A stretch of 10,358 bases of DNA from an uncultured Collinsella sp. GTDB lineage: Bacteria; Actinomycetota; Coriobacteriia; Coriobacteriales; Coriobacteriaceae. The stretch is taken from assembly GCA_934654765.1 (NCBI GenBank), contig CAKUGX010000063.1, forward strand, positions 1 to 10,358, in the 5' to 3' direction. A program made the position numbers and the translations under genes. This document shows positions 1 through 10,358 of the stretch, piece by piece; within the stretch, counting starts at the first letter, position 1; every line of letters begins with the position of its first letter. The notes under the pieces are model-generated. The model searched no databases. It saw only the letters and a program-made list of their open reading frames with translations, and had not been told where the DNA came from.

Positions 1-1
1 T

Positions 2-295
2 GGCCTGGTGGCGCTTGTGCGCAAGGCGTTTCCGACAGGGGAGGTGTCGATCGAGCATGCAGACGCGGGCCTTTACTGCACCGTGGTTGCGGAGTGCGAA
101 GCGGGCGGAAGCTCTTTTGCACGGGCCCTCATGCACTCGAGTATCCCTTTTATCGATATCAGTGACTGTTTTTGGTGTACCGATGGCGCATCTGTCCCTG
201 AAAACTCAACTCAAATTCTTGTCCAGTATGACGATCTGAGCCCGAAAGTACTTAATACCTTGGAATTGCAGCTAACGGGGCGCTCTGCAACCTAA
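2..295 (+). CDS. 3' end of a gene, possibly a MocR/PdxR-type PLP-dependent regulator (partial)
   Basis: The frame is open from the left edge, so only the last ~97 residues are visible and the true start lies outside the window. The visible pattern (an AGLY stretch resembling the 'GLH' strand, an Ala-Leu-Met-His...Ile-Pro-Phe-Ile segment, then an ILVQYDDLSP strand-turn followed by a final Leu-rich helix) resembles the C-terminal small domain of fold-type I aminotransferases as found in MocR/PdxR GntR-family regulators. This is pattern memory, not a search. No PLP lysine or HTH is visible because those parts are upstream. The stop TAA (293-295) lies inside the first bases of the 121-base repeat that follows, so the natural C-terminus may have been replaced by the repeat. 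It could instead be an unrelated accessory protein; the coding call is firmer than the family. Confidence 0.45.
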   Translation, partial: GLVALVRKAFPTGEVSIEHADAGLYCTVVAECEAGGSSFARALMHSSIPFIDISDCFWCTDGASVPENSTQILVQYDDLSPKVLNTLELQLTGRSAT

Positions 296-412
296 GTGAG
301 TAGACTTGTGGCACTTTGGCGACCAGGCAGTTTTGTAACAAGCTATCTACCTGTGGTTTTGAGAAGCAGAATGACCGGTCTGCTCGGGGTGTTCCAAATA
401 GTCTACTCACTT
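292..412 (+). repeat. 121-base dispersed element, copy 1 (MITE-like, terminal inverted repeats)
   Basis: This 121-base block aligns without gaps to 1712-1832, with 100 of 121 positions identical by my manual count. Its ends are inverted repeats: aagtgagtagact (294-306) and agtctactcactt (400-412), 13 bases perfect. The left end ctaagtgagtag holds TAA, TGA and TAG in three different frames within 11 bases, and it ends the preceding reading frame. The centre carries no recognisable gene. It resembles a small non-autonomous mobile element or a dispersed hairpin repeat; I infer, but cannot show, that more copies exist in the genome. Confidence 0.85.
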
Positions 413-446
413 GCCGTGCAAAGCTTCCGCATGAGAAATAAATGGG

Positions 447-512
447 GTTTTCAACAGGGCTTCGTCCAGTTCTCGGCAAGCTTTTGGTCAGTTGGGGAGG
501 GCTGTTGAAAAC
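447..512. repeat. 66-base inverted-repeat element
   Basis: GTTTTCAACAG (447-457) and its exact reverse complement CTGTTGAAAAC (502-512) bound a 44-base spacer. Read as RNA it would form an 11-bp stem. No U-tract follows, so it does not look like a classic intrinsic terminator. It lies between repeat copy 1 and the nuclease-like gene. It may be a second family of small palindromic element. The rest of the gap 413-589 shows no gene and no convincing promoter. Confidence 0.6.
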
Positions 513-589
513 TTAGCAGTCCGTTCGACGCCATTTTTGGTGCGTTCGCGCCAATGCGAGACCGATTGGGTTGAAATTCGTGTTTTCCT

Positions 590-1723
590 GTGCTTATGAA
601 GGATCTACTTTGTGACATATCGGCTTTTAGGTACTGGCGTTTGCCCCCTCAGGTCCGCGCTTTGTGTCCGCCGCTTCCACGGCCGGAAGAAGACCGGCAG
701 CGATATGATCTCGCCCGTAACCCGACGGCTGCGGTTGCGCTCGGCTTTCCGTTGTATACATTGGTTCGGACGAGAAACAAGCGGACTTGTCCTGCCAGCA
801 TTAGGCAGCGGCTGTTCCTCGGTGAGCTCCCCAGGGAATCCGTGCTGGAAACGGAGCATGGATTTTTGATTACGTCTCCTCTACTGACGGCATTCATCAT
901 GTTGCGGCATCTGACGGATCTCCAGCTTCTTTTGGTATTGGCGGAGATGTGTGGCTTGTTTGCGGTGTGCGCTCTGCCGGCGGCGCTTGAGGCGGAGCTT
1001 ACGCGCGCAATTGATTCGGGCGCGATTTCGACAACGGTTGGTTGGGTGCGCTGCCCGTCCGAAGACGGCACCGCTTCAAATTTATGGCGTCGAGACGCTT
1101 TGGTTTTGGGCAGAGACCTTGACCGTTTTTGTTCAGATGTTTGCGGGATGCGTTACGGCAATAGATTTATGGCGGTATCGCAACTCGTTCCATTGGGTGC
1201 CGCGTCGCCTTTTGAGGTCGAGGCGTATTTGTTGCTTGGACTGCCGCGAGCCCTGGGAGGCGAAGGGTTCTGTGGCATAGAGCTCAATGTCGAAGTGACG
1301 CTAAGCACAAGTGCTCGAGCGATTGTGGGAAAGTCCCGTGTATATATCGACCTACTTCTTTCTTCGCCGGACGGCAGGCGACAGGTGGCCATTGAATGTC
1401 AGGGGAAGGCCTCGCACGGACGCGCAGGGGATGGCTTGCGTGACGCTGACCGCATGACAGCCCTTCAGGCCATGGGCTACGATGTACTTCTCCTGACACA
1501 CAGACAGATATTCGATGAGGGTAGATTCCGCGCGATTGTTAAGGCCGTATGCAGGATGCTCGATGCTGAATATCGTGATAAAAGCTCAGATGAGCAAAGG
1601 GCTGAGACATTACTTCGGTCTGAACTATTCGTTGACTGGACAAAATTGGGAGTAATTGACGGAAAGATGCCCGTTAGACACAAAACAGCTCGATCGTGGA
1701 CGGCTGCGGTTCTAAGTGAGTAG
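590..1723 (+). CDS. AbiEi/DUF559-like protein with C-terminal PD-(D/E)XK nuclease-type fold
   Basis: This is a 377-residue protein. The start is uncertain: GTG at 590 or ATG at 596, neither with a clear Shine-Dalgarno; an in-frame TGA at 572 sets the upstream limit. Visible blocks are an N-terminal SAFRYWRLPP segment (~11-20), a TSP motif (95-97) as in 'TSPxrT' blocks of AbiEi/DUF559 proteins, an SPFEVE block (206-211), then the nuclease-like core: D254 in VYIDLLL, E269-x-Q271-G in IECQGK, H276, D287-R288, and GYDVLLLTHRQI. This order matches actinobacterial DUF559 (Vsr-like) proteins, where 'EyqG..H..DR' forms the active site; E-x-Q in place of E-x-K is common there. Such genes occur in accessory and defence-type DNA, but a role as a toxin, antitoxin or nuclease is inference. 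Codons are visibly less GC-rich than in neighbours, suggesting transfer. The last residues LSE and the TAG come from the repeat starting at 1712. Confidence 0.75.
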   Translation: MLMKDLLCDISAFRYWRLPPQVRALCPPLPRPEEDRQRYDLARNPTAAVALGFPLYTLVRTRNKRTCPASIRQRLFLGELPRESVLETEHGFLITSPLLTAFIMLRHLTDLQLLLVLAEMCGLFAVCALPAALEAELTRAIDSGAISTTVGWVRCPSEDGTASNLWRRDALVLGRDLDRFCSDVCGMRYGNRFMAVSQLVPLGAASPFEVEAYLLLGLPRALGGEGFCGIELNVEVTLSTSARAIVGKSRVYIDLLLSSPDGRRQVAIECQGKASHGRAGDGLRDADRMTALQAMGYDVLLLTHRQIFDEGRFRAIVKAVCRMLDAEYRDKSSDEQRAETLLRSELFVDWTKLGVIDGKMPVRHKTARSWTAAVLSE

Positions 1724-1834
1724 ACTTTTGGCACTTTGGCGACCAGGCTGTTTTGCAACAAGTCATTTACCTGCGGCTTTATAAAGCAATATGGATGGTG
1801 TGCTCGGCAAGTTCCAAAAAGTCTACTCACTTAG
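1712..1834 (+). repeat. 121-base dispersed element, copy 2 (17-base terminal inverted repeats)
   Basis: This is the second copy, in the same orientation as the one at 292. Here the terminal inverted repeat is 17 bases and perfect: ctaagtgagtagacttt (1712-1728) and aaagtctactcacttag (1818-1834). Pairing continues inward with one bulge (ggcac / gttcc). The inner palindrome gctttataaagc is present here but decayed in copy 1. The left end supplies the stop codon of the preceding gene, and the right end gives three-frame stops to anything read from the minus strand. This looks like the more intact copy. Confidence 0.88.
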
Positions 1835-1899
1835 TTTTTGGCAAGATGCCAATGCCTAAGGCGGTCCTATTTCAGGGCGTTAACGAGTCCTCGAGACAC

Positions 1900-1929
1900 A
1901 AAAAGGCCCGAACCGTGTGGTCCGGGCCT
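1900..1929 (-). terminator. Rho-independent terminator of the rubrerythrin gene
   Basis: On the minus strand AGGCCCGGAC pairs with GUUCGGGCCU (10 bp with one G-U pair) around a 6-base loop, followed directly by five U residues (1904-1900). It lies 34 bases beyond the rubrerythrin stop. Its plus-strand face may also stop transcripts arriving from the nuclease-like gene, though no U-tract follows on that strand. Confidence 0.9.
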
Positions 1930-1963
1930 CATTGAGCAAGAGGTTATGCCTCAGGCAGTTGGC

Positions 1964-2524
1964 TTAGCCAAAGTAACGCTTGAGCAGACCGGCGAAAGCC
2001 TTGCCGTGGCGAGCCTCGTCGCGAGCCATCTCGTGCACGGTGTCGTGGATGGCATCGAGGCCAGCGGCCTTGGCGCGCTTGGCGAGGTCGGTCTTGCCGG
2101 CGGTAGCGCCGTTCTCGGCCTCAACGCGCATCTCGAGGTTCTTCTTGGTGGAGTCGGTCACGACCTCGCCCAGGAGCTCAGCGAACTTGGCGGCATGCTC
2201 GGCCTCCTCGTAGGCAGCCTTCTCCCAGTACAGGCCGATCTCGGGATAGCCCTCGCGATGAGCGACGCGAGCCATGGCCAGGTACATACCGACCTCGGAG
2301 CACTCGCCCTCAAAGTTGGCGCGCAGGTCGGCAACGATGTCCTCGGAGACGCCCTCCATCTTGGCGACGCCCACGACGTGCTCGGCAGCCCACTCGAGCT
2401 GGCCCTCCTCCTGCTTCAGGAAACGAGAACCGGGGACGCCGCACTGGGGGCACTTGAAGTCCTCGGGCAGCTGGTCGCCGTCGAACTCTTCCACATAACC
2501 GCAAACGGGGCAAACAAACTTCAT
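1964..2524 (-). CDS. rbr: Reverse rubrerythrin (N-terminal rubredoxin, C-terminal diiron domain; NADH peroxidase type)
   Basis: Start chosen at ATG 2524: [10 protein letters not shown] is the natural rubredoxin start and AAAGGA (2537-2532) sits 7 bases upstream; a longer in-frame extension to 2617 lacks family sequence. The product is 186 residues. Residues 5-29 form the FeCys4 rubredoxin site: C5-x2-C8-G and C25-x2-C28-G. Residues ~45-186 are the ferritin-like four-helix bundle with diiron ligands in FEGE (E74 region), E106/E107-x2-H110, E135/E137 and D169-E170-x2-H173. The rubredoxin-first order marks the 'reverse' rubrerythrins, known from Clostridium acetobutylicum as NADH-linked peroxidases that reduce H2O2 (and O2) to water with electrons from NADH-dependent partners. 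The protein is expected in the cytosol as an oxidative-stress defence of an anaerobe. It appears monocistronic, with its own promoter and terminator. Confidence 0.95.
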
Positions 2525-2560
2525 GATTCGATCCTTTCGATCGATGGCGATGGGGCGCTT

Positions 2561-2589
2561 GTCCGGTCCCGTAAGGGCCCTCTCCGGAC
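2561..2589 (-). promoter_or_regulatory. GC-rich hairpin in the rubrerythrin leader
   Basis: GTCCGG (2589-2584 on the minus strand) pairs with CCGGAC (2566-2561), and an inner CCC/GGG pair can close around a short loop. It lies in the ~80-base leader between the proposed promoter and the ATG, about 24 bases before the Shine-Dalgarno. It could affect mRNA stability or translation. I see no match to a named riboswitch. Confidence 0.4.
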
Positions 2590-2608
2590 GTGCGTCTTGA
2601 CGAGTTCT

Positions 2609-2636
2609 ATTATCCATAAATGCGACCGAATGTGAA
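2609..2636 (-). promoter_or_regulatory. Putative promoter of the rubrerythrin gene
   Basis: On the minus strand TTCACA (2636-2631) and GATAAT (2614-2609) are 16 bases apart, close to the housekeeping consensus TTGACA / TATAAT. An AT-rich stretch (2641-2670) lies just upstream of the -35. The site would give a leader of roughly 75-80 bases. No start-site data support it. Confidence 0.5.
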
Positions 2637-2659
2637 GCCTATTAGGAATGATTTTTAAT

Positions 2660-2691
2660 AAAACAATTTTGACGCTGTCATCTAACAGCGC
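2660..2691 (-). terminator. Weak stem-loop at the end of the DUF5131 gene
   Basis: On the minus strand GCGCUGU (2691-2685) pairs with ACAGCGU (2678-2672), 7 bp with one G-U, and the gene's own TAG stop sits in the 6-base loop region. The tail is only moderately U-rich (caaaattgtttt), so termination may be partial. Readthrough would continue into the rubrerythrin gene. Confidence 0.45.
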
Positions 2692-3575
2692 CCGCATAGT
2701 CCGCAGCGGACGCAGCCGTTGCAGATGAACTTGCTTCCGCAGGTTTCGCACCACTCGTAATACGGCGGATCCCAAAGCTCCGAGCTGGGGATTTCCAGGC
2801 CGAGCGGGTCCCTTAGGTCCCATTCGATTTGGCGATCGCGGTGCTGGAGGCCTGATTTCCATGCCTGCTCGCTTTGCAGGTTTTTGCCACGAAGGTGATA
2901 TGTTCGCCCGTCCTTAACGAAGGTGCTTCCGGTTTCGATGAAAGCGAACGTCGCATTTGCCGCTACGCATTCGGCATACAGCTGGCGCACCCATTCGTAA
3001 TGGCAGGGACGCGCTCCCGCGTAGTTTTCTCCGCCTGCGATGACCTGCTCGATTCCATCGGGTTTTCCAAGGCTACCGGGGGCGGCTTTCTCGACCGACA
3101 CGCTTCCGATGAACGGCGCACACATGATGCCGCGGTGTGCGGCCGGTGTGGCGAGCAGGAGGGGAATCCGCTCATTTGCCCTGCGCTGGTTTTCGCAGGT
3201 TACGTTGAGCATGACGTTTTGCCAGCCATCGCCCCAGTCGCTGGGCAGACAGCCGCAAAAGCGCTCGGGACGTTTGGTCAGAATGAAGAACTTTACGTCG
3301 GGTCTCTGGCGGATGATATCCCATACCTCTGGTCGCCAGGGATCGGCTTCGGGCAACAGGAAATCGCTTGTCATGCAGATGCGGATAAGCTCGCCGGCGC
3401 GAACTTTGTAGCTGCCGTCTCGTCGGCGTTGGAGGGGATAGGTGAAGCCCGACTTGCTCTTGCTAATCACGGAGGGGTCGATGCCGCGCTGGCCGTCCAT
3501 GTAATACATGTAGCAGTTGTCGCATCCCTCGCTGACGCGCGTGCAGCCATGCCAGGGGTTCCAGATGTCATGCAC
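2682..3575 (-). CDS. DUF5131 / phage Gp37-Gp68 family protein with radical-SAM-like Cys triad and Cys-rich tail
   Basis: The product is 297 residues. The start is GTG at 3575, chosen because AAAGGAGG (3590-3583) lies 7 bases upstream. The N-terminus has the family hallmark WNPWHGC...GCDNCY, giving C11-x6-C18-x2-C21, a triad resembling the iron-sulfur motif of radical-SAM enzymes. The body includes LTKRPERF (~99-106), NVMLNVTCENQ, a GGENYAGARPCHYEWVRQL stretch and an FIETGS block, as in Gp37/Gp68 proteins (Pfam DUF5131). The last 22 residues hold seven cysteines (276, 279, 285, 288, 291, 294, 297), suggesting a zinc ribbon or further metal site. Family members occur on phages and mobile elements, often beside a three-Cys-motif partner protein (TcmP); none is visible here. 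Substrate and reaction are unknown. The family call is firm; catalytic function is inference. Confidence 0.88.
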   Translation of the reverse strand: MHDIWNPWHGCTRVSEGCDNCYMYYMDGQRGIDPSVISKSKSGFTYPLQRRRDGSYKVRAGELIRICMTSDFLLPEADPWRPEVWDIIRQRPDVKFFILTKRPERFCGCLPSDWGDGWQNVMLNVTCENQRRANERIPLLLATPAAHRGIMCAPFIGSVSVEKAAPGSLGKPDGIEQVIAGGENYAGARPCHYEWVRQLYAECVAANATFAFIETGSTFVKDGRTYHLRGKNLQSEQAWKSGLQHRDRQIEWDLRDPLGLEIPSSELWDPPYYEWCETCGSKFICNGCVRCGLCGRC

Positions 3576-3697
3576 CTTTGCGCCTCCTTTGCGGCGGACG
3601 TGAATCCAATGGACTCTGAAAGACTAACACCGGATGACGCCGGGAAGCTCCGAACAATATGAAGATGTTGATTGATTAACGATTACCGAGCCACCTG

Positions 3698-3745
3698 CGA
3701 CCATCGATGAGTACAATCGGTCGAGCAAATGTTGACCCATCAACA
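3698..3745 (+). promoter_or_regulatory. Possible operator/promoter region upstream of the alcohol dehydrogenase operon
   Basis: The gap between the divergent DUF5131 and ADH genes (3576-3763) holds CGACC (3698-3702) and GGTCG (3719-3723) around an 8-base palindrome CATCGATG (3702-3709) and a -10-like TACAAT (3712-3717). A further 6-base inverted repeat TGTTGA / TCAACA (3730-3735, 3740-3745) lies just before the ribosome binding site. No good -35 was found. These could be regulator-binding sites for the operon, but short inverted repeats also arise by chance. Confidence 0.3.
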
Positions 3746-3763
3746 AATGAAGGAGTTTCCTTT

Positions 3764-4984
3764 ATGCATCTAGCCCGTCGTGCCTGGTGCCGAACATATC
3801 AGACGGTTTTTCGTATCGCATTGCCGATCCTGCCCTATACCGAGCCGCGCATTTTGGAGCATGCCGAGGATGTGCCCGCGGTGTTCCAAAAGCGCTCGAT
3901 ACAGCAGGCCCTTATCGTGACGGATCCTGGCATTGCTCGTCTGGGGCTTACGGCGCCGCTCGAGCGCGCGCTCGCGTCCAAGGGGATTGGCGTTACGGTC
4001 TATGCCGAAACGCGTGCGAACCCCACGGTCTCGAATGTGGAGGAAGCGGCGGCGCTGTATCGCGAGAACGACTGCCAGGCCATTATCGGCTTTGGTGGCG
4101 GTTCGGCCATGGACTGCGCCAAGGGCGTGGGCGCGCGCATTGCGCAGCCAAACAAACCCATCAACAAGATGCGCGGCCTGTTGCGTGTTCACCGTCTCCT
4201 GCCGCTGCTTATCGCGGTTCCCACTACCGCCGGTACGGGAAGCGAAGTCACGCTCGCGGCGGTGATTACCGACGACGAGACGCACTATAAGTACCCCATC
4301 AATGACTTTGTGCTCATTCCGCGCTTTGCGGTGCACGACCCCGAATTTACGCGTGGGTTGCCGGCGTCCATTACGGGGCAGACGGGCATGGATGCTCTGA
4401 CGCATGCCGTCGAGGCTTTTATCGGTCGTAGCACCACGCCCTACACGCGCAAGATGGCGCGCCAAGCGGTTCAGCTCATCCACGACAATTTGCTCGAGGC
4501 CTATGAGCATGGCGACAACATGAGTGCGCGTCGCAATATGCTTTCGGCGGCGTATAAGGCGGGCGTCGCATTTACGCGCTCCTATGTTGGATATGTGCAT
4601 GCCATCGCGCACAGTCTGGGTGGCCGATACGGCATTCCGCATGGTTTGGCCAACGCCATTATCCTGCCGCACATGCTTCGCGCTTATGGCGAAGCTGCCG
4701 CTCCCAAGCTTGCCGATCTTGCTCGCATGGCGGGCATTGCGCCGGCTAACGCGCGGGACGGCTTGGCTGCCGAGGCCTTTATCGATTGGGTCGATCGCAT
4801 GAACGATGCCTTGGGAATTCCTAAATACGTCTCGGGTATTCGCCGCTCCGATATTCCGCAAATGGCCGCCCATGCCGATGCCGAGGCCAATCCGCTGTAT
4901 CCTGTCCCGCTTTTGATGGACCGTTTGGAGCTCGAGCATATGTACGAGGTCGTCGCGGGTGGTATGTTTGAGGACGAGAACTAG
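3764..4984 (+). CDS. Iron-containing (group III) alcohol dehydrogenase
   Basis: The start ATG at 3764 has AAGGAG (3750-3755) 8 bases upstream; the longer frame from 3707 adds 19 residues without a ribosome binding site and is not favoured. The 406-residue product has the usual family size. The N-terminal Rossmann-like part carries G111-G-G-S114 in the GFGGGSAMD nucleotide-binding motif, and TTAGTGSE (154-161) follows. The helical C-terminal domain gives the metal ligands D210, H214, H279 and H293 by analogy with FucO. It should interconvert an aldehyde and an alcohol with NAD(P)H in the cytosol; the substrate cannot be read from sequence. The next gene is an aldehyde dehydrogenase whose ribosome binding site overlaps this stop codon, so the pair probably handles a common aldehyde, perhaps for redox balance or detoxification. 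No truncation or missing ligand is seen. Confidence 0.95.
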   Translation: MHLARRAWCRTYQTVFRIALPILPYTEPRILEHAEDVPAVFQKRSIQQALIVTDPGIARLGLTAPLERALASKGIGVTVYAETRANPTVSNVEEAAALYRENDCQAIIGFGGGSAMDCAKGVGARIAQPNKPINKMRGLLRVHRLLPLLIAVPTTAGTGSEVTLAAVITDDETHYKYPINDFVLIPRFAVHDPEFTRGLPASITGQTGMDALTHAVEAFIGRSTTPYTRKMARQAVQLIHDNLLEAYEHGDNMSARRNMLSAAYKAGVAFTRSYVGYVHAIAHSLGGRYGIPHGLANAIILPHMLRAYGEAAAPKLADLARMAGIAPANARDGLAAEAFIDWVDRMNDALGIPKYVSGIRRSDIPQMAAHADAEANPLYPVPLLMDRLELEHMYEVVAGGMFEDEN

Positions 4985-4988
4985 GAGG
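4983..4988 (+). promoter_or_regulatory. Ribosome binding site overlapping the ADH stop codon
   Basis: AGGAGG overlaps the TAG stop (4982-4984) of the alcohol dehydrogenase gene and lies 4 bases before the ATG at 4993. A ribosome ending on the first gene would sit on the binding site of the second, which supports translational coupling. Confidence 0.85.
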
Positions 4989-4992
4989 GTCC

Positions 4993-6372
4993 ATGAACAC
5001 CGAGGAAATCGCGCGCATCGTTAGCAGCCAGCGCACCTATTTTAAGACGCATGCCACGTTTGATGTCGATGCTCGCCGCCGCGCGCTCATGCGCCTGTGC
5101 GATGCGGTTCGGGCACACGAGGACGATATCGCCCATGCGCTCAAGACCGATTTGGGCAAGTCGCATGACGAGGCGTATATGTGCGAGATCGGCACGTCGC
5201 TTTCCGAGATTCGCCATCAGATTGCGCATGTGGCCCAGTGGAGTCGTGCGCACCTGCGCCCGTGCGACCTCGCCAATGCTATTAGCGTGTGCAAGACGCA
5301 GCCGGTTCCCTATGGCGTAACGCTGATCATGGCACCCTGGAACTATCCGTTTTTGCTGACGCTCGAACCGCTTGCCGGTGCCCTTGCCGCGGGCAACACC
5401 GCGGTTATCAAGCCGAGTGCCTATGCGCCGGCGTCGAGCGCCGTGCTCAAACAGATTTGCGAGGAAGCGTTCGATCCGCGCCTGGTGACAGTCGTCGAGG
5501 GCGGTCGTGCCGAGAACGAGGCACTGCTCGATGAGTGCTGGGATAAGATTTTCTTTACCGGCAGCGTTCCGGTCGGCAAGCTTGTCATGGAGCGCGCGAG
5601 CAAAAATCTCACGCCCGTGACACTTGAGCTGGGCGGCAAGAGCCCCTGCATCGTGGATGCCTCCGCAAACTTGAAGGTGGCGGCACGCCGCATCGCCTTT
5701 GGTAAGTGGCTCAACGTGGGCCAGACCTGTGTAGCGCCCGACTATCTGCTGGTCGATGCGCGCGTGCACGATGAGCTGCTGGAACTCATCAAGGAGGAGG
5801 TCCGCCGCATGTTTGGCGAGCACCCGCTCGACAACGAGGACTACGGCCATATCGTCAACGCCAAGCATTTCGCGCGCGTGCGCGGGCTGATCGACCCCGA
5901 CAAGGTTGTGCTAGGAGGTGCGGCGCGCGAGGCCTCGCTCAAGATTGAGCCGACGATCCTGGACGGCGTGACGCCCGAGGATGCCGTGATGCAGGAGGAG
6001 ATTTTCGGTCCCATCTTGCCGGTGCTGACGTTTGAGAGCCTGGACGAGGCCGAGACGTTTATCACGGATCGTCCGACGCCGCTGGCCCTGTATATCTTTA
6101 GTCGGGATCGCGCGGTGCAGCAGCGCTTTGTGCGCTACGTGCCCTTTGGCGGCGGCTGCGTTAACGATACGATCATGCATCTGGCTACGAGCCATATGGG
6201 CTTTGGCGGCATGGGCGCGAGCGGCATGGGGCAATACCATGGCCGCGAGAGTTTCGATACGTTTAGCCACAAGAAGAGCATCGTGAACAAGGCAACATGG
6301 CTGGATGTACCGTTCCGCTACGCCCCCTACGCAAGCTGGAAGCGCAAATTCGTGCGCATGTTTGTGCATTAG
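4993..6372 (+). CDS. NAD(P)-dependent aldehyde dehydrogenase (class 3-like)
   Basis: The 459-residue product is shorter than the ~490-500 of class 1/2 enzymes and typical of class 3-like bacterial enzymes. Key residues are visible: PWNYP (N117), K140 in IKPS, FTGS (188-191), general base E212 in LELGGKSP, catalytic C246 in GQTC, the EEIFGP block and the C-terminal GGGCVNDTIMH segment. It oxidises aldehydes to carboxylates, or works in reverse under strong reducing conditions. It ends without a hydrophobic tail, so it should be cytosolic. It follows the alcohol dehydrogenase by 8 bases and is probably translated with it. The substrate is not predictable from sequence alone. The fatty-aldehyde (class 3) similarity is suggestive only. 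Confidence 0.95.
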   Translation: MNTEEIARIVSSQRTYFKTHATFDVDARRRALMRLCDAVRAHEDDIAHALKTDLGKSHDEAYMCEIGTSLSEIRHQIAHVAQWSRAHLRPCDLANAISVCKTQPVPYGVTLIMAPWNYPFLLTLEPLAGALAAGNTAVIKPSAYAPASSAVLKQICEEAFDPRLVTVVEGGRAENEALLDECWDKIFFTGSVPVGKLVMERASKNLTPVTLELGGKSPCIVDASANLKVAARRIAFGKWLNVGQTCVAPDYLLVDARVHDELLELIKEEVRRMFGEHPLDNEDYGHIVNAKHFARVRGLIDPDKVVLGGAAREASLKIEPTILDGVTPEDAVMQEEIFGPILPVLTFESLDEAETFITDRPTPLALYIFSRDRAVQQRFVRYVPFGGGCVNDTIMHLATSHMGFGGMGASGMGQYHGRESFDTFSHKKSIVNKATWLDVPFRYAPYASWKRKFVRMFVH

Positions 6373-6400
6373 AAAAAGACAGCAGATAGGGGACAAACAG

Positions 6401-6434
6401 AGTGGCCGCCCCCGCGTAAGCGAAGACGGCCACT
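6401..6434. terminator. Inverted repeat after the ADH-ALDH operon (possible terminator)
   Basis: AGTGGCCG (6401-6408) and CGGCCACT (6427-6434) form a perfect 8-bp stem; the 18-base loop can itself fold (CGC-GTAA-GCG). It lies 28 bases after the aldehyde dehydrogenase stop, where a terminator is expected, but no U-tract follows on either strand. The rest of the 261-base gap 6373-6633 shows no gene; a -10-like TATAAG occurs at 6590-6595 without a convincing -35. Confidence 0.45.
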
Positions 6435-6633
6435 TCTCACGATGAAAACGTGTATCGGAGTTGGCAGGACCCGCGGGCACGGGTGCCATCCGTGACCCTA
6501 TCTTATCTGCAAGCGTTGCGACAAACGGTCAAAAAGACACGAGACCCGAGACAAGTGAATTTGTGTCCGCACGAGTTCGTAGACTTCTCTATAAGGTTAA
6601 GCGTCGGTTATTCCGGCCGTTAGAGGAGCTGCT

Positions 6634-6960
6634 ATGTACGAGCCTTCACGTGTTCTTTTATCGTTTCACATCGCAGGATTTCAGTATGCCGACGGCGCAT
6701 TGGTCCTGGGTGATCTAAAAGCGGGTGATAAGCTGACGTTGTGTGCCGAGCGCGATAACCCCCATGATCCTGAGGCGGTTGCAATCTATTTTGGCAAGGC
6801 TAAGCTCGGCTATGTTCCGGGAAACGAGGTCGGCCCGCTGTCCGTGATGATGTATTACGGGCACGAAGATGTGTTTGAGGCCCGCGTGCAGCAGGTTGCG
6901 CCCGAGCGCAGCCCCTGGCATCAGGTGCGCGTTGGCCTTTATGTGGCGGATGCCCGCTAG
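6634..6960 (+). CDS. Stand-alone HIRAN-domain protein
   Basis: The product is 108 residues. The start ATG has AGGAG 5 bases upstream (GAGGAG from 6623). The whole protein is one HIRAN-like domain: FHIAGFQY (11-18), an L-x-x-G-D-x-L block, the signature ERDNPHDPEAVAIYF, then KLGYVPGNE. In HLTF/Rad5 the HIRAN domain binds single-stranded 3' DNA ends; small bacterial HIRAN proteins are mostly uncharacterised and are often guessed to act in DNA repair or stalled-fork handling. No nuclease or helicase domain is fused here. A 59-residue gene starts 18 bases after its stop and is likely co-transcribed. The domain call is firm; the cellular role is open. Confidence 0.88.
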   Translation: MYEPSRVLLSFHIAGFQYADGALVLGDLKAGDKLTLCAERDNPHDPEAVAIYFGKAKLGYVPGNEVGPLSVMMYYGHEDVFEARVQQVAPERSPWHQVRVGLYVADAR

Positions 6961-6978
6961 CCGCTAGGGGAGGCTGCC

Positions 6979-7158
6979 ATGTTTGATGACGACGACCTGT
7001 TCGATTTGACGGACGACCCGTTTGAGTGGGATATGCTGCTCGACGATGATGAGCTGGAGCGGGACCGTAAGAAGCGGAAGGACGAGAACGTCCAAGGCGA
7101 CGCATCGAAAAAGAATGACAAGCGCCGCCGTGGATTGTTTGGCGGGCTCTTTGGGTAA
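6979..7158 (+). CDS. Small highly charged protein of 59 residues, unknown function
   Basis: ATG at 6979 is preceded by GGGGAGG (6967-6973) with a 5-base spacer, a very strong ribosome binding site. It follows the HIRAN stop by 18 bases, so the two are probably one operon. The protein has 15 acidic residues within positions 1-29 (starting MFDDDD), then 12 basic residues in 28-51, and ends RRRGLFGGLFG with a tandem GLFG. It has no Cys and no membrane segment, and is probably disordered apart from the tail. I do not recognise the family. The acid-then-base polarity could serve as a DNA mimic plus nucleic-acid-binding tail, or simply as a linker partner for HIRAN; neither is shown. Support for being real rests on the binding site, spacing and codon use. 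Confidence 0.75.
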   Translation: MFDDDDLFDLTDDPFEWDMLLDDDELERDRKKRKDENVQGDASKKNDKRRRGLFGGLFG

Positions 7159-7224
7159 CCGCCGTGCCAAAGCGTCTGTATACTAGGCACGTGTTAGACG
7201 CGTTGCGAAATGAGGACACAGACG

Positions 7225-7770
7225 ATGATGTGGTTTACCGCCGACCTGCACCTGGGCGATACGAATATCCTGCACGATATGGATCGACCGTTTGCCTCGG
7301 TCGAGGAGATGAACCGCAAGGTTATTGACGCTATTAACGAGTGCGTGGCTGCGGACGACCGCCTCTATATCCTGGGAGACTTTACGTATCGCTTGCCCAT
7401 GGCGGAGGCCGTGCGCCTGCGCGAGCGTATTGCCTGCCAAAACGTGACGCTCATACGGGGCAACCATGACGGCGATTGGGAAGATCCGGACGCACCGCAA
7501 ATTTGGGATGACGTGCGCGATTACCTGGAGATTGCTCCCGGTTATGCCAAGGGACATCGTCTGGTTCTGAGCCATTACCCCATGCTCAGTTGGAACGGCA
7601 AAGCGCGTGGCGCCATTATGCTACACGGGCATATCCACAGCAGGGGAGACCGCGCCAACACGCGCAACCGTGATCGCGAGCGTCCCATTTTCCGCTACGA
7701 TGTTGGTCTCGACGCCAACGACTACAAACCTGTAAGCCGAGACCAGATCTTGAGCTTCTTTGGACTGTAA
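7225..7770 (+). CDS. Calcineurin-like metallophosphoesterase
   Basis: The start is taken at ATG 7225, 8 bases after GAGGA (7212-7216); an upstream ATG at 7210 overlaps that site and lacks one of its own. The 181-residue product carries the five metallophosphoesterase motifs in order: D7-x-H9 (TADLHLGD), G51-D52 (LGDF), G79-N80-H81-D82, S116-H117 (LSHYP), and G135-H136-x-H138. These bind two metal ions and hydrolyse phosphomonoesters or diesters. The small size and single-domain layout match uncharacterised cytosolic phosphohydrolases; the substrate is unknown. A -10-like TATACT at 7179-7184 may start its transcript, though without a clear -35, so it may also be read from the HIRAN operon 66 bases upstream. 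A hairpin terminator follows. Confidence 0.92.
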   Translation: MMWFTADLHLGDTNILHDMDRPFASVEEMNRKVIDAINECVAADDRLYILGDFTYRLPMAEAVRLRERIACQNVTLIRGNHDGDWEDPDAPQIWDDVRDYLEIAPGYAKGHRLVLSHYPMLSWNGKARGAIMLHGHIHSRGDRANTRNRDRERPIFRYDVGLDANDYKPVSRDQILSFFGL

Positions 7771-7779
7771 CCCTCAAGC

Positions 7780-7816
7780 CACCATAAAGGGGACAGGCAC
7801 CTTTGTGGTGTTTTTT
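7780..7816 (+). terminator. Hairpin terminator, also copy A of a 32-base hairpin repeat
   Basis: CACCATAAAGG (7780-7790) pairs with CCTTTGTGGTG (7800-7810), 11 bp with one G-U, loop of 9, followed by six T residues (7811-7816). It starts 9 bases after the metallophosphoesterase stop. The block 7779-7810 matches 8610-8641 at 29 of 32 positions, with the last 22 identical. Confidence 0.8.
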
Positions 7817-7834
7817 CCTTAGATTGGAGTCGTT

Positions 7835-8599
7835 ATGAAGCAACTGCTCATTCGTGCCGATGATATTGGCTATTCGTACGCCGTTGACCTGGGGATTGCT
7901 CGCAGTGTCAACGAGGGTCTCGTGCGCTCGGCGGGCCTTATGCCCAATATGCCCGAGGCCGAGCGTGGCTGGTCGCTCGTGGCGGATGCCGGCATTGCGG
8001 TGGGCCAGCATACCAATGTGTGCCTGGGTAAGCCGTGTGCCGAACCGGCGCTCATCCCGAGTCTGCTCGATGAAAACGGTGAGTTCCATAGCAGCCGTAC
8101 CTTCCGCGGGCACTTTAAGCATGGCGAGGAACTGATTGACTTCGACGAGGCCTGCATTGAGATTCGCGCGCAGCATGACCGCTTTGTCGAGATCGTGGGT
8201 CGCGAGCCCGATTACTTTGAGGCCCACGCCGTTATGAGCAAAAACCTCAACCGCGCGATTTCGGTGGTGGCGCAGGAGTTGGGCCTTAAGGAGCAAAAGG
8301 CGAGCTTTGACCCCACGGCCGTGGTGCACTGCGGAGACACCGATCTGCGCATGGTGATGCGCTCGATGGAGCCAGACTATGAGCCAAAGGAAGCAATCAT
8401 GCAGACGGTTCGCGAGATGGCCGATGACGAGACGGTCGTCTTCGTATGCCATCCGGGCTATCTCGATCGCTTTATTCTTGAGAGCAGCTCGCTTACGACC
8501 GATCGAACCAAGGAGGTCGATGCGCTGATCGACCCCGAGCTGCGGGCGTGGCTCGAGGCTCAGGACGACCTGCGCCTGATTGACTACCGCGACCTGTAA
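7835..8599 (+). CDS. YdjC/ChbG-family carbohydrate deacetylase
   Basis: The start ATG has TGGAG 5 bases upstream. The product is 254 residues, typical of the family. Visible motifs are LLIRADDIGYS with the metal/catalytic pair D9-D10, GQHTN with H59, F-E-A-H131 in the block equivalent to the 'D-x-H-x-H' strand, and CHPGYLD near the end. ChbG (YdjC) removes an N-acetyl group from chitooligosaccharides such as diacetylchitobiose phosphate; other members act on different acetamido sugars. No PTS, glycosidase or sugar regulator is next to it, so the substrate cannot be assigned. There is little room for a promoter between the preceding terminator and this ribosome binding site, suggesting readthrough or a start within the hairpin. 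Around H131 the motif is FEAHAV rather than the commoner DGHQH, a possible subfamily difference. Confidence 0.92.
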   Translation: MKQLLIRADDIGYSYAVDLGIARSVNEGLVRSAGLMPNMPEAERGWSLVADAGIAVGQHTNVCLGKPCAEPALIPSLLDENGEFHSSRTFRGHFKHGEELIDFDEACIEIRAQHDRFVEIVGREPDYFEAHAVMSKNLNRAISVVAQELGLKEQKASFDPTAVVHCGDTDLRMVMRSMEPDYEPKEAIMQTVREMADDETVVFVCHPGYLDRFILESSSLTTDRTKEVDALIDPELRAWLEAQDDLRLIDYRDL

Positions 8600-8609
8600 A
8601 GCACTCAGA

Positions 8610-8642
8610 CCACCACGATGGGGACAGGCACCTTTGTGGTGG
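8610..8642 (+). repeat. Hairpin repeat, copy B
   Basis: CCACCAC...GTGGTGG forms a stem of about 8 bp, with a partly mismatched inner part. Its sequence matches the hairpin at 7779-7810 at 29 of 32 positions. It begins 11 bases after the deacetylase stop but, unlike copy A, has no U-tract. A true terminator follows 4 bases later. Confidence 0.75.
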
Positions 8643-8646
8643 TTCT

Positions 8647-8681
8647 GGCGCCGTTGCCATTCTGGCGGCGGCGCCTTTTTT
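8647..8681 (+). terminator. Rho-independent terminator after the deacetylase gene
   Basis: GGCGCCG (8647-8653) pairs with CGGCGCC (8669-8675); the loop can extend the stem with GCC/GGC. Six T residues follow (8676-8681). This is a textbook intrinsic terminator for the deacetylase transcript. Confidence 0.9.
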
Positions 8682-8739
8682 GTCCGCATGGCGCGGTAGA
8701 GTGTAGGCGGTTGAAATTTGCGTCCATCGAGGAGCTGCT

Positions 8740-10358
8740 ATGAACGAGATCAAGTGCCCGCATTGCGGCGAAGTCTTTAAGGTCGATGCGTCCGGCTATG
8801 CGGACATCGTCAAACAGGTGCGCGATGCGGAGTTCTCGCGCGACTTGGATGAGCGCGTGAAGGCCGTCCAGCGCGAGGGTGAGCAGGCGTTGGAGCTTGA
8901 GCGCTCGCGCTCGACTGCCGCCTTGCAGGAGGCGGAGTCTCAGCGCGACGCTCAGCTCGTTGAGCAGAAAAACGCCGCGGCTCAGGAGCTGGCGCAGGAA
9001 GTTGCCAAGCGCGACGCCGAGCTTGCCGAGCTGCGTGCCAAGCTCGAGGGTGCTGCCGCAGAGCGTGAGAGCGCAAGTCAGCGTGCAGCTGTTGAGGCTC
9101 GTGCCGATGCTCAAAAGGAAAACGCCGAGCTGCAGCGCGAGGTTGATAGCTTACGTGCGCAGCTGGGACGCAAGGACGACGAAGCCAAGCTTGCCGAGGC
9201 AGCGGTGCGCAACGCCGCTCAAAACGACCTGTCCGCACGTGATGCCCAGATTGCCGAGCTGCAGGCGAAACTCTCCGCGGCAGACAAGGCCCAGGAGATG
9301 GCGCTCGCCGCTGCGGCCGCCGAGTCGCAGCGCGAGCTTGCTGCTGCTCACAGCGAAGCCGAGCGCGCGCTTGCCGACTATCAGGCGAAAGTACAGGAGA
9401 AGTTCTCCGCCGCAAAGGCTCAGTCCGAGCAGGAGGCAGAGGGTCTGCGTGCCCAGCTGCGCGAACAAGAGCTGACGGCAAAGATGAACCTATCGGAGGC
9501 AGTTGCCGCGGCGGAGCGTGAGCGCGATGAGGCGCGCGCGAAGCTCACGAGCGAGCTTGCGGTGCGCGATTCTCGCGAGGAGCAGGCCAAGGCGGCCCAC
9601 GAGCTCGAGCTTGCTCAGGCAAAGCGCGCGAGTGACGAGCTCATTCGCTACAAGGACGAAGAGATTGAGCGCCTGAAGGACATGAAGGTGCGCCTGTCCA
9701 CCAAGATGGTGGGCGAGTCGCTCGAGCAGCACTGCGAGACGGAGTTCAATCGCTTGCGCATGACGGCGTTTCCCAACGCTTATTTTGAGAAAGACAACGA
9801 TGCATCCGAGGGCACCAAGGGCGACTTCATCTTCCGTGAGTGCGACGCGAGCGGCAACGAGATCATCTCGATTATGTTCGAGATGAAAAACGAGAATGAC
9901 GAAACCGCGACCAAGCACAAGAACGAGGACTTCTTTAAGAAGCTCGACCACGATCGCCGCCAGAAAGGCTGCGAGTACGCGGTGCTCTGCACCCTGCTCG
10001 AGCCCGAGAGCGAGCTCTATAACGCCGGCATCGTGGACGTGAGCTATCGCTACGAGAAGATGTATGTGATCCGCCCGCAATTCTTCATCCCGATGATCAC
10101 GCTGCTGCGCAACGCCGCTATGGGCTCGCTGCGCTATAAGCAGGAACTGGCGGAGTACAAACAGCAGAACATCGATGTGACGAACTTCGAAGCCAAGATG
10201 GAAAAGTTCAAGGACGGTTTCTCGCGCAACTACAACTTGGCGAGCAAGCAGTTTGAGTCGGCAATCAAGGAAATCGATGCCGCTATTAAGCAGCTTGAGA
10301 AGACCAAGGACGACCTGCGTCGTAGTACCGAGAACCTGCGCTTGGCCCACAATAAGGC
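8740..10358 (+). CDS. DUF2130 protein: CPHCG N-terminus, long coiled coil, PD-(D/E)XK-type domain (3' end outside window)
   Basis: The frame is open from ATG 8740 (GAGGAG upstream, 5-base spacer) to the window edge, 539 residues visible with no stop. The N-terminus has one C-x2-C pair in IKCPHCGEVFKVD. Residues ~25-318 are an almost unbroken Ala/Glu/Gln/Arg/Leu-rich stretch expected to form a long coiled coil, with repeated 'AELxAKL'-like units. From S320 the DUF2130 domain begins (STKMVGESLEQHCE), containing G361-D362-F and F380-E381-M-K383, a D...E-x-K arrangement of the PD-(D/E)XK nuclease fold, then KNEDFFKKLDHDRRQKG and an AVLCTLLEPESELYNAG strand. A final helical part (~455-539) follows. 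The layout resembles RmuC-like proteins that act on DNA. DUF2130 proteins are usually ~400-480 residues as I recall, so this one has an expanded coil. Function is not established for the family; cytosolic or nucleoid location is likely. Confidence 0.9.
   Translation, partial: MNEIKCPHCGEVFKVDASGYADIVKQVRDAEFSRDLDERVKAVQREGEQALELERSRSTAALQEAESQRDAQLVEQKNAAAQELAQEVAKRDAELAELRAKLEGAAAERESASQRAAVEARADAQKENAELQREVDSLRAQLGRKDDEAKLAEAAVRNAAQNDLSARDAQIAELQAKLSAADKAQEMALAAAAAESQRELAAAHSEAERALADYQAKVQEKFSAAKAQSEQEAEGLRAQLREQELTAKMNLSEAVAAAERERDEARAKLTSELAVRDSREEQAKAAHELELAQAKRASDELIRYKDEEIERLKDMKVRLSTKMVGESLEQHCETEFNRLRMTAFPNAYFEKDNDASEGTKGDFIFRECDASGNEIISIMFEMKNENDETATKHKNEDFFKKLDHDRRQKGCEYAVLCTLLEPESELYNAGIVDVSYRYEKMYVIRPQFFIPMITLLRNAAMGSLRYKQELAEYKQQNIDVTNFEAKMEKFKDGFSRNYNLASKQFESAIKEIDAAIKQLEKTKDDLRRSTENLRLAHNK

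Follow-up and report, generated by a model that had tools for sequence, protein, structure and literature searches.

Repetitive extragenic palindromic (REP) doublets forming hairpins (REPINs) are described, in sections of the paper by Bertels and Rainey (PMC3116915), as short extragenic palindromic units with paired ends that form a long hairpin, and three groups are reported there from one Pseudomonas genome, each clustering beside its own REP-associated tyrosine transposase (RAYT) gene. Bacterial miniature inverted-repeat transposable elements (MITEs) such as ERIC and Correia are characterised in a portion of PMC10969869 as short intergenic inverted-repeat elements of moderate copy number, some of them located in 3′ untranslated regions, and the homing endonuclease I-Bth0305I dimerises on a target of nearly 60 bp according to sections of PMC3943268. 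Among the top-ranked results of a literature search confined to papers outside subscription, parts of PMC3733652 included, nothing was found on palindromic repeats of Collinsella or Coriobacteria. Here, a family of palindromic elements in Collinsella and its gut relatives of the order Coriobacteriales is described from two copies in a stretch of 10,358 nucleotides from an uncultured Collinsella sp. (contig CAKUGX010000063.1, positions 1 to 10,358 of the forward strand; hereafter the window), where they flank a gene for a nuclease-like protein, referred to as gene 2. We read the elements as a mobile, REPIN- or MITE-like palindromic family with the nuclease-like gene as the likely partner that recognises its own arm type, and put the probability of this reading at about 0.6.

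Searches were performed with two covariance models, R1, built from 31 copies, and R2, into which the window copies were entered with flanks (table 1), and 60 element copies were aligned (alignment A2). The elements were roughly 120-165 bp long and were found in several families of the order. Their outer arms (14 to about 37 bp) were type-specific in sequence with near-perfectly complementary halves, and enclosed an inner inverted repeat that was strongly conserved (GAGTAGAC ... GTCTACTC; in the window type GAGCAC or GACCA ... GTGCTC or CTGCTC) as well as a conserved central motif, TACCTGCGGTTTT. In the more distant genomes matched by R1 the outer arms differed, and length, inner repeat and centre were still recognisable. 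Over the 14 bp core of the arms, pairing was kept in 92-100% of the 60 sequences against an expected 42-79%, and double-change cells numbered 514 against 180 in shuffles, these cells counting sequences rather than events among copies that are related within a type. Watson-Crick pairs were kept in the arms with few G-U intermediates, and pairing in the spacer between arm and inner repeat was no better than chance in the same copies. A longer subfamily of about 155-168 bp had the same kind of centre motif (L278, L282, L250 and L252, from genomes G059, G062 and G065); neighbouring elements of the family, separated by almost nothing to about 85 bp, were seen at L162, L163, L168 and G115:C1:762376-762681 and 1562271-1562565. 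Elements of G023 (L134, L149) carried left and right arms of different types (e.g. TTTAGGGG left and TTTAGAAG right), hinting at recombination between arm types.

Of 58 relatives, 18 carried the window type, every one of them belonging to the genus of the genome nearest to the window (36% of sampled 31-mers in common), where it occurred in 18 of 35 genomes, and 48 of 50 distinct copies, sought at 110-128 bp, measured 119 bp from end to end, the other two 120 bp. Matches to R1 were obtained in 38 of the 43 genomes of that genus. With R2, matches were found in 48 of 120 sampled genomes of the order and 18 of 66 genera, five of these genera being represented by one weak match each that may be due to chance, and across the phylum 7 of 198 genomes had matches at E <= 1e-5, all belonging to Coriobacteriales. 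Because 26 candidates per genome were scored in the order-wide scan and 15 in the phylum-wide scan, the per-genome counts are lower bounds. Two complete genomes that were scored more fully held elements at 20 and 17 distinct places, one of them partial in each genome (27 and 28 rows, with 7 and 11 places reported on both strands).

The link to gene 2 was assessed by a homologue search that was blind to the elements and gave 54 fetched loci besides the window site, of which 14 came directly from the search and 40 were picked from its listing. An element lay within 370 bp of the homologue, a limit chosen after the distances were seen, at 39 of the 54 loci (7 on both sides, 17 upstream only and 15 downstream only); among the 39, L321 and L324 rest on E values of 0.0013 and 0.004, and L316 and L320 on partial matches. 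The 15 loci lacking an element comprised nine representing one orthologous site (including L212, with a sub-threshold match at E 0.12), two cut by contig ends and four others. When the proteins were clustered at 60% identity, 20 of 24 clusters had a neighbouring element (window-site orthologues included), and in G034 an element stood beside all five homologues at E <= 1e-30. For other genera, 30 loci were fetched from the larger match set of a profile search covering 13 genomes of nine genera. Elements were found at 8 of the 10 best-scoring loci at E <= 1e-3 (6 on both sides), the other two giving a weak match (L360, 0.011) and none (L371). The 20 lower-scoring loci showed elements on both sides at one place that was fetched twice (L366, L382), weak matches at L364, L365 and L378 (E 4e-4 to 6e-4; those at L364 and L365 may fall inside a reading frame) and still weaker ones at L369 and L381. 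At control loci defined by PF00149, elements were present in 12 of 30, all of them orthologues of a single site (12 of 15 in this group, which adjoins a window-type site), and in none of the 15 loci outside that group.

Arms were shared between the elements of one gene: mean arm similarity was 0.82 for two elements flanking the same gene (16 pairs, 8 in the same orientation and 8 not), whereas 480 comparisons of elements from different genes averaged 0.45 and never exceeded 0.65. Flanking pairs at 0.65 or less were those of L222, L383 and L308, the arms of the last agreeing by eye at an offset beyond the allowed shift. Among the solo copies listed, 30 of 72 together agreed at 13 or more of 14 bases with a gene-flanking arm from the same genome (G017 15/17, G115 8/11, G035 4/11, G059 2/11, G034 1/22), and 2 of 80 did so with the arms of the other four genomes. 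Type-specific linkage to a gene is present in these counts and uneven between genomes, and for some arm types no gene was found. In G026, a locus with the same neighbours as the window site held a homologue of gene 2 (41% identical at the protein level) together with a single element whose arms are entirely different, beside a rubrerythrin 94% identical to that of the window. We tentatively propose, at somewhat less than an even chance, that the elements and their genes make up a previously undescribed class of mobile DNA in Coriobacteriales, in which a homing-endonuclease-like protein is paired with a private, fast-changing palindromic arm, with two flanking copies, solo copies around and an enzyme and arm that would co-diverge, as the G026 locus may illustrate.

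The elements share with MITEs their short length, non-coding nature, terminal inverted repeats and multiple copies, and could be ordinary members of that class, i.e. non-autonomous derivatives of a DDE insertion sequence (IS), with the outer arms as the recognition sites of its transposase and the nuclease-like genes as hitchhikers. Their intergenic position, usual for bacterial MITEs in the relevant passages of PMC10969869, and the roughly 20 places per genome in the two more fully scored genomes agree with this. We nevertheless regard it as unlikely, given that the conserved part is internal and the arms vary by type and covary freely between types, the reverse of what is expected of a MITE, and that the elements are linked to one nuclease-like family in the 20 of 24 clusters given above. 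No transposase was noticed between matching arms, and no IS parent was seen, in loci and genomes that were not systematically scanned for transposases; inspection by eye of those flanks that were seen in alignment gave no evident target site duplication, likewise without a systematic search. The only coding DNA between element halves, an open reading frame of 562 aa in L032 (G025, 5605-7237), looks like an insertion into the element: an insert of about 1.5 kb splits copy 1 there, apparently with a duplication of 8-9 bp (GCAGGATG). A clean empty site for a solo element was not found at the L050 site, the only site so examined (DNA search, 21 genomes). No junction could be read there because the element-free genomes have changed intergenic sequence: L341-L345 and L347 carry an unrelated intergenic stretch, and in L346 an element lies further off and the stretch has also changed. 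The same search showed that an intergenic sequence of about 145 bp in L050 (3224-3369) belongs to another repeat family, different from the element, with several copies each in many of the 21 genomes.

Gene 2 gave a weak match to PF18741, and the C-terminal part of its predicted fold was closest to the homing endonuclease I-Bth0305I (Vsr/EDxHD-like). Residues E207, D252, E267, H274 and D283 were invariant across 15 family sequences and may correspond to the ordered E, D, H and D conserved in EDxHD enzymes. A Pfam scan of nine partner proteins returned matches of the restriction endonuclease type in eight. The likeness to EDxHD enzymes and Vsr is that of a best fold match in a model, and nuclease activity is predicted; no intron or intein was seen at gene 2, which is flanked by palindromic repeats instead, and for its N-terminal part the most that the nine scanned members gave was one weak match to AbiEi_1 (E 0.076). 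Weak DUF559, MTES_1575 and AbiEi_1 matches in some members recall AbiEi/DUF559 proteins, from which the family differs in having no NCBIfam match in 7 members and a single weak PADLOC match (HEase, E 0.005) among 6. The named close relatives, among those listed, came from Collinsella, order Coriobacteriales, and were all called hypothetical protein. When trained on the fetched loci, a codon model did not call gene 2 as coding, indicating codon use unusual for the genome.

The family itself, its architecture and covariation, its association with the gene, the sharing of arms and the genomic context are directly observed here; from them we infer recognition, cleavage and mobility by the nuclease as follows. 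The protein would recognise the arm type that accompanies its own gene, perhaps once this is extruded as a hairpin or cruciform, and would cut or nick the arm; copying into the break could then spread the gene with its flanking elements, and solo elements in trans, with insertions surviving mainly past the 3′ ends of genes. The resulting pair would be REPIN-RAYT-like but built on an enzyme of the homing-endonuclease type. Likeness to REPINs and RAYTs is found in the conserved sequences, which make up an inverted pair and fold into a long hairpin, and in the type-specific linkage to an enzyme-like gene. The inner motif of the elements also includes GTAG/CTAC, by which one REP superfamily is tagged in the sections of PMC3733652 that treat it. 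The differences are that a match to the Y1 transposase domain (Y1_Tnp, PF01797) was absent from the nine scanned partner proteins, Y1 genes near elements not having been searched for, and that one partner has a predicted Vsr/EDxHD-like nuclease fold; that the conserved blocks are internal here, with outer arms that are near-perfect but type-specific; and that two copies flank the gene in many loci.

Genomic context was evaluated for 165 distinct copies from the fetched loci (67 obtained through a loose window-type pattern), which were reduced to 91 sites; genes were called with a home-made codon model and long open reading frames, so that gene boundaries in these counts are approximate. Sites were convergent in 37 cases, tandem in 38, divergent in 10, within a called gene in 4 and at locus edges in 2, and the 149 element-free background gaps of 150-900 bp from the same loci were convergent in 6, tandem in 84 and divergent in 59. 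Convergent positions were enriched (37 of 85 classifiable sites versus 6 of 149 gaps, Fisher p = 1e-13), in agreement with the expectation of an earlier note on the window that such elements would be tolerated at gene ends, and divergent positions were depleted (10/85 versus 59/149, p = 6e-6). This avoidance of promoters speaks against the idea that the gene 2 family encodes AbiEi-like DNA-binding autoregulators, with the adjoining element as operator and the dispersed copies as further binding sites. The element does lie just upstream of the gene in 24 of 54 homologue loci, and the weak AbiEi_1 match mentioned above would fit a regulator; elements downstream are about as frequent (22/54), and the domain that can be made out resembles a nuclease, with acidic and His residues that do not vary, so that we consider an operator function quite unlikely.

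Enrichment near 3′ ends would also be expected of a device acting at the RNA level, such as a terminator, an mRNA stabiliser or a structured RNA, and strong hairpins were predicted: as the earlier note had supposed, the element folds. For both copies, folded as RNA on either strand, predicted stability far exceeded that of shuffled sequences (z -4.0 to -5.6), none of 200 shuffles reaching it in any of the four folds. A structured RNA was considered and rejected, as the search of the window against Rfam was empty at gathering scores and the covariation, though real, included few G-U pairs. The GC-rich stem with a 3′ T run of an intrinsic terminator was not found in the window arms: these end CACTTAG/CACTTGC, the foot of the stem is not GC-rich, and TTTTT follows copy 2 and not copy 1. 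Among the listed arm types a T run is absent from most, one G034 type ending in one. Moreover, a terminator-like hairpin already stood between stop codon and element in 38 of 107 intervals, compared with 43 of 298 control genes, a comparison that favours the intervals because they extended up to 400 nt and the control stretch was 104 nt. In L050 and orthologous loci, inspection by eye places the element past the terminator-like hairpin of each of the two convergent genes, in the stretch that separates these hairpins. None of the tests indicated that the elements shape transcript 3′ ends, as the earlier note had thought conceivable, and an RNA-level role is judged improbable.

The window element had drawn attention by its stop codons. 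The earlier note had placed it at 292-412, which omits the last two bases of the core, and had described a left end with TAA, TGA and TAG in three frames, closure of the upstream coding frame (2-295) on the TAA and a right end without TAA, all of which were borne out (table 1). The triple stop of copy 1 is carried by CTAAGTGAGTAG, positions 292-303 being ctaagtgagtag; the TAA is missing from the right end because the inward sequence there is GCAAGTGAGTAG. Copy 2, 83% identical to copy 1 over 121 nt, has the triple stop at both ends, and weaker inverted-repeat similarity extends outside copy 1 (282-306 with 400-424, 80% complementary). Since stops in all three frames occur in 0.16% of random 14-mers of the arm composition, the motif is unusual as a single draw. 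Copy 1 follows gene 1, putatively a MocR-like regulator/aminotransferase (no Pfam match was obtained with the 97-aa window fragment), in 17 sequences (16 genomes and the window). Small indels just upstream bring gene 1 into the element in three different frames, and its terminal stop is the arm TAG in 8 sequences, TGA in 5 and TAA in 4, so that the arm replaces a lost gene 1 stop in any frame. Five element-free homologues of gene 1 (L186-L190) were found, and each was closed by a TAA of its own that lay 5 to 8 codons earlier, a result that went against the earlier note; in four of the five genomes the rubrerythrin hairpin follows gene 1 directly, L188 having other sequence at a contig end. An insertion in the window lineage at this locus was considered and withdrawn, since G026 has a gene 2 homologue and an element there and the direction is uncertain. 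At the G026 locus (L258), the gene 1 homologue matched in separate pieces and looks broken beside the intact gene 2 homologue.

Beyond the window type the triple stop was absent from the arm types sampled. In alignment A2 it was present in 5 of 6 left arms of the window type and in none of the other 54; no frame at all was stopped by 37 of the 60 left arms, and 47 of 60 elements left at least one of the six frames open throughout. The proposal that the element stops translation in every frame held for the gene 1 orthologues and not for the family. Nor did proximity to stop codons hold as a general rule: among 75 sites that adjoin the 3′ end of a gene, 2 had a stop within 15 bp of the element, namely window copies 1 and 2, and the median distance from stop to element was 104 bp (222 gene ends, orthologues counted). 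That the element is a translational stop cassette, selected for closing genes in every frame, is highly improbable, the use of all three arm stops among the 17 gene 1 sequences being outweighed by the count of sites, the restriction of the triple stop to one arm type and the element-free homologues that use their own stop; as a selected function, it found no support beyond the two window sites. The three-frame stop looks like a side effect of the arm sequence AAGTGAGTAGAC.

Table 1. Features of the window, with positions counted from its first nucleotide.
Feature	Position	Strand	Remarks
Element copy 1 with R2 flanks	280..426	+	core 292-414; span of AAGTGAGTAGACT to AGTCTACTCACTT exactly 119 bp
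Left outer arm of copy 1, CTAAGTGAGTAGACTT	292..307	+	TAA 293-295, TGA 297-299, TAG 301-303
Right outer arm of copy 1, inverted	399..414	-	TAA lost, GC at end in place of AG
Interior of copy 1 with inner inverted repeat (around 321-325, 381-385)	319..387	+	conserved alignment columns
Centre motif of copy 1, TACCTGTGGTTTT	348-360		coordinates counted on window sequence
Element copy 2 with R2 flanks	1700..1846	+	core 1712-1834; orientation as copy 1
Centre motif of copy 2, TACCTGCGGCTTT	1768-1780		
Gene 1, 3′ part, 97-aa window fragment	2..295	+	ends on TAA of copy 1; L031 orthologue 490 aa
Gene 2, nuclease-like, 375 aa (open reading frame 375-377 aa, 590-1723)	596..1723	+	between copies 1 and 2; ends on TAG 1721-1723 inside copy 2
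Terminator-like hairpin, AAAAAGGCCCG..CGGGCC	1900..1930	.	by eye; beside convergent rubrerythrin gene; copy 2 stops short of hairpin
Rubrerythrin gene	1964-2524	-	convergent neighbour of gene 2

A second, unrelated repeat (GGGGACAGGCACCTTTGTGGT) was noted in the window at 7773-7813 and 8604-8644, 3′ of two genes; it seems to resemble REP sequences of the RAYT type.

The apparently designed three-frame stop of the window would be explained by an arm that is kept for another reason and happens to close a neighbouring gene that has lost its own stop. If the mobile palindromic family with its nuclease-like partner is as proposed, it would represent a second, independent solution to the REPIN-RAYT arrangement, in which an enzyme-like gene unlike known transposases maintains dispersed palindromes. 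It would also give a testable function to nuclease-like genes that are called hypothetical in Collinsella and its relatives, and would offer a natural series of matched pairs of protein and DNA arm for studying the evolution of sequence recognition.
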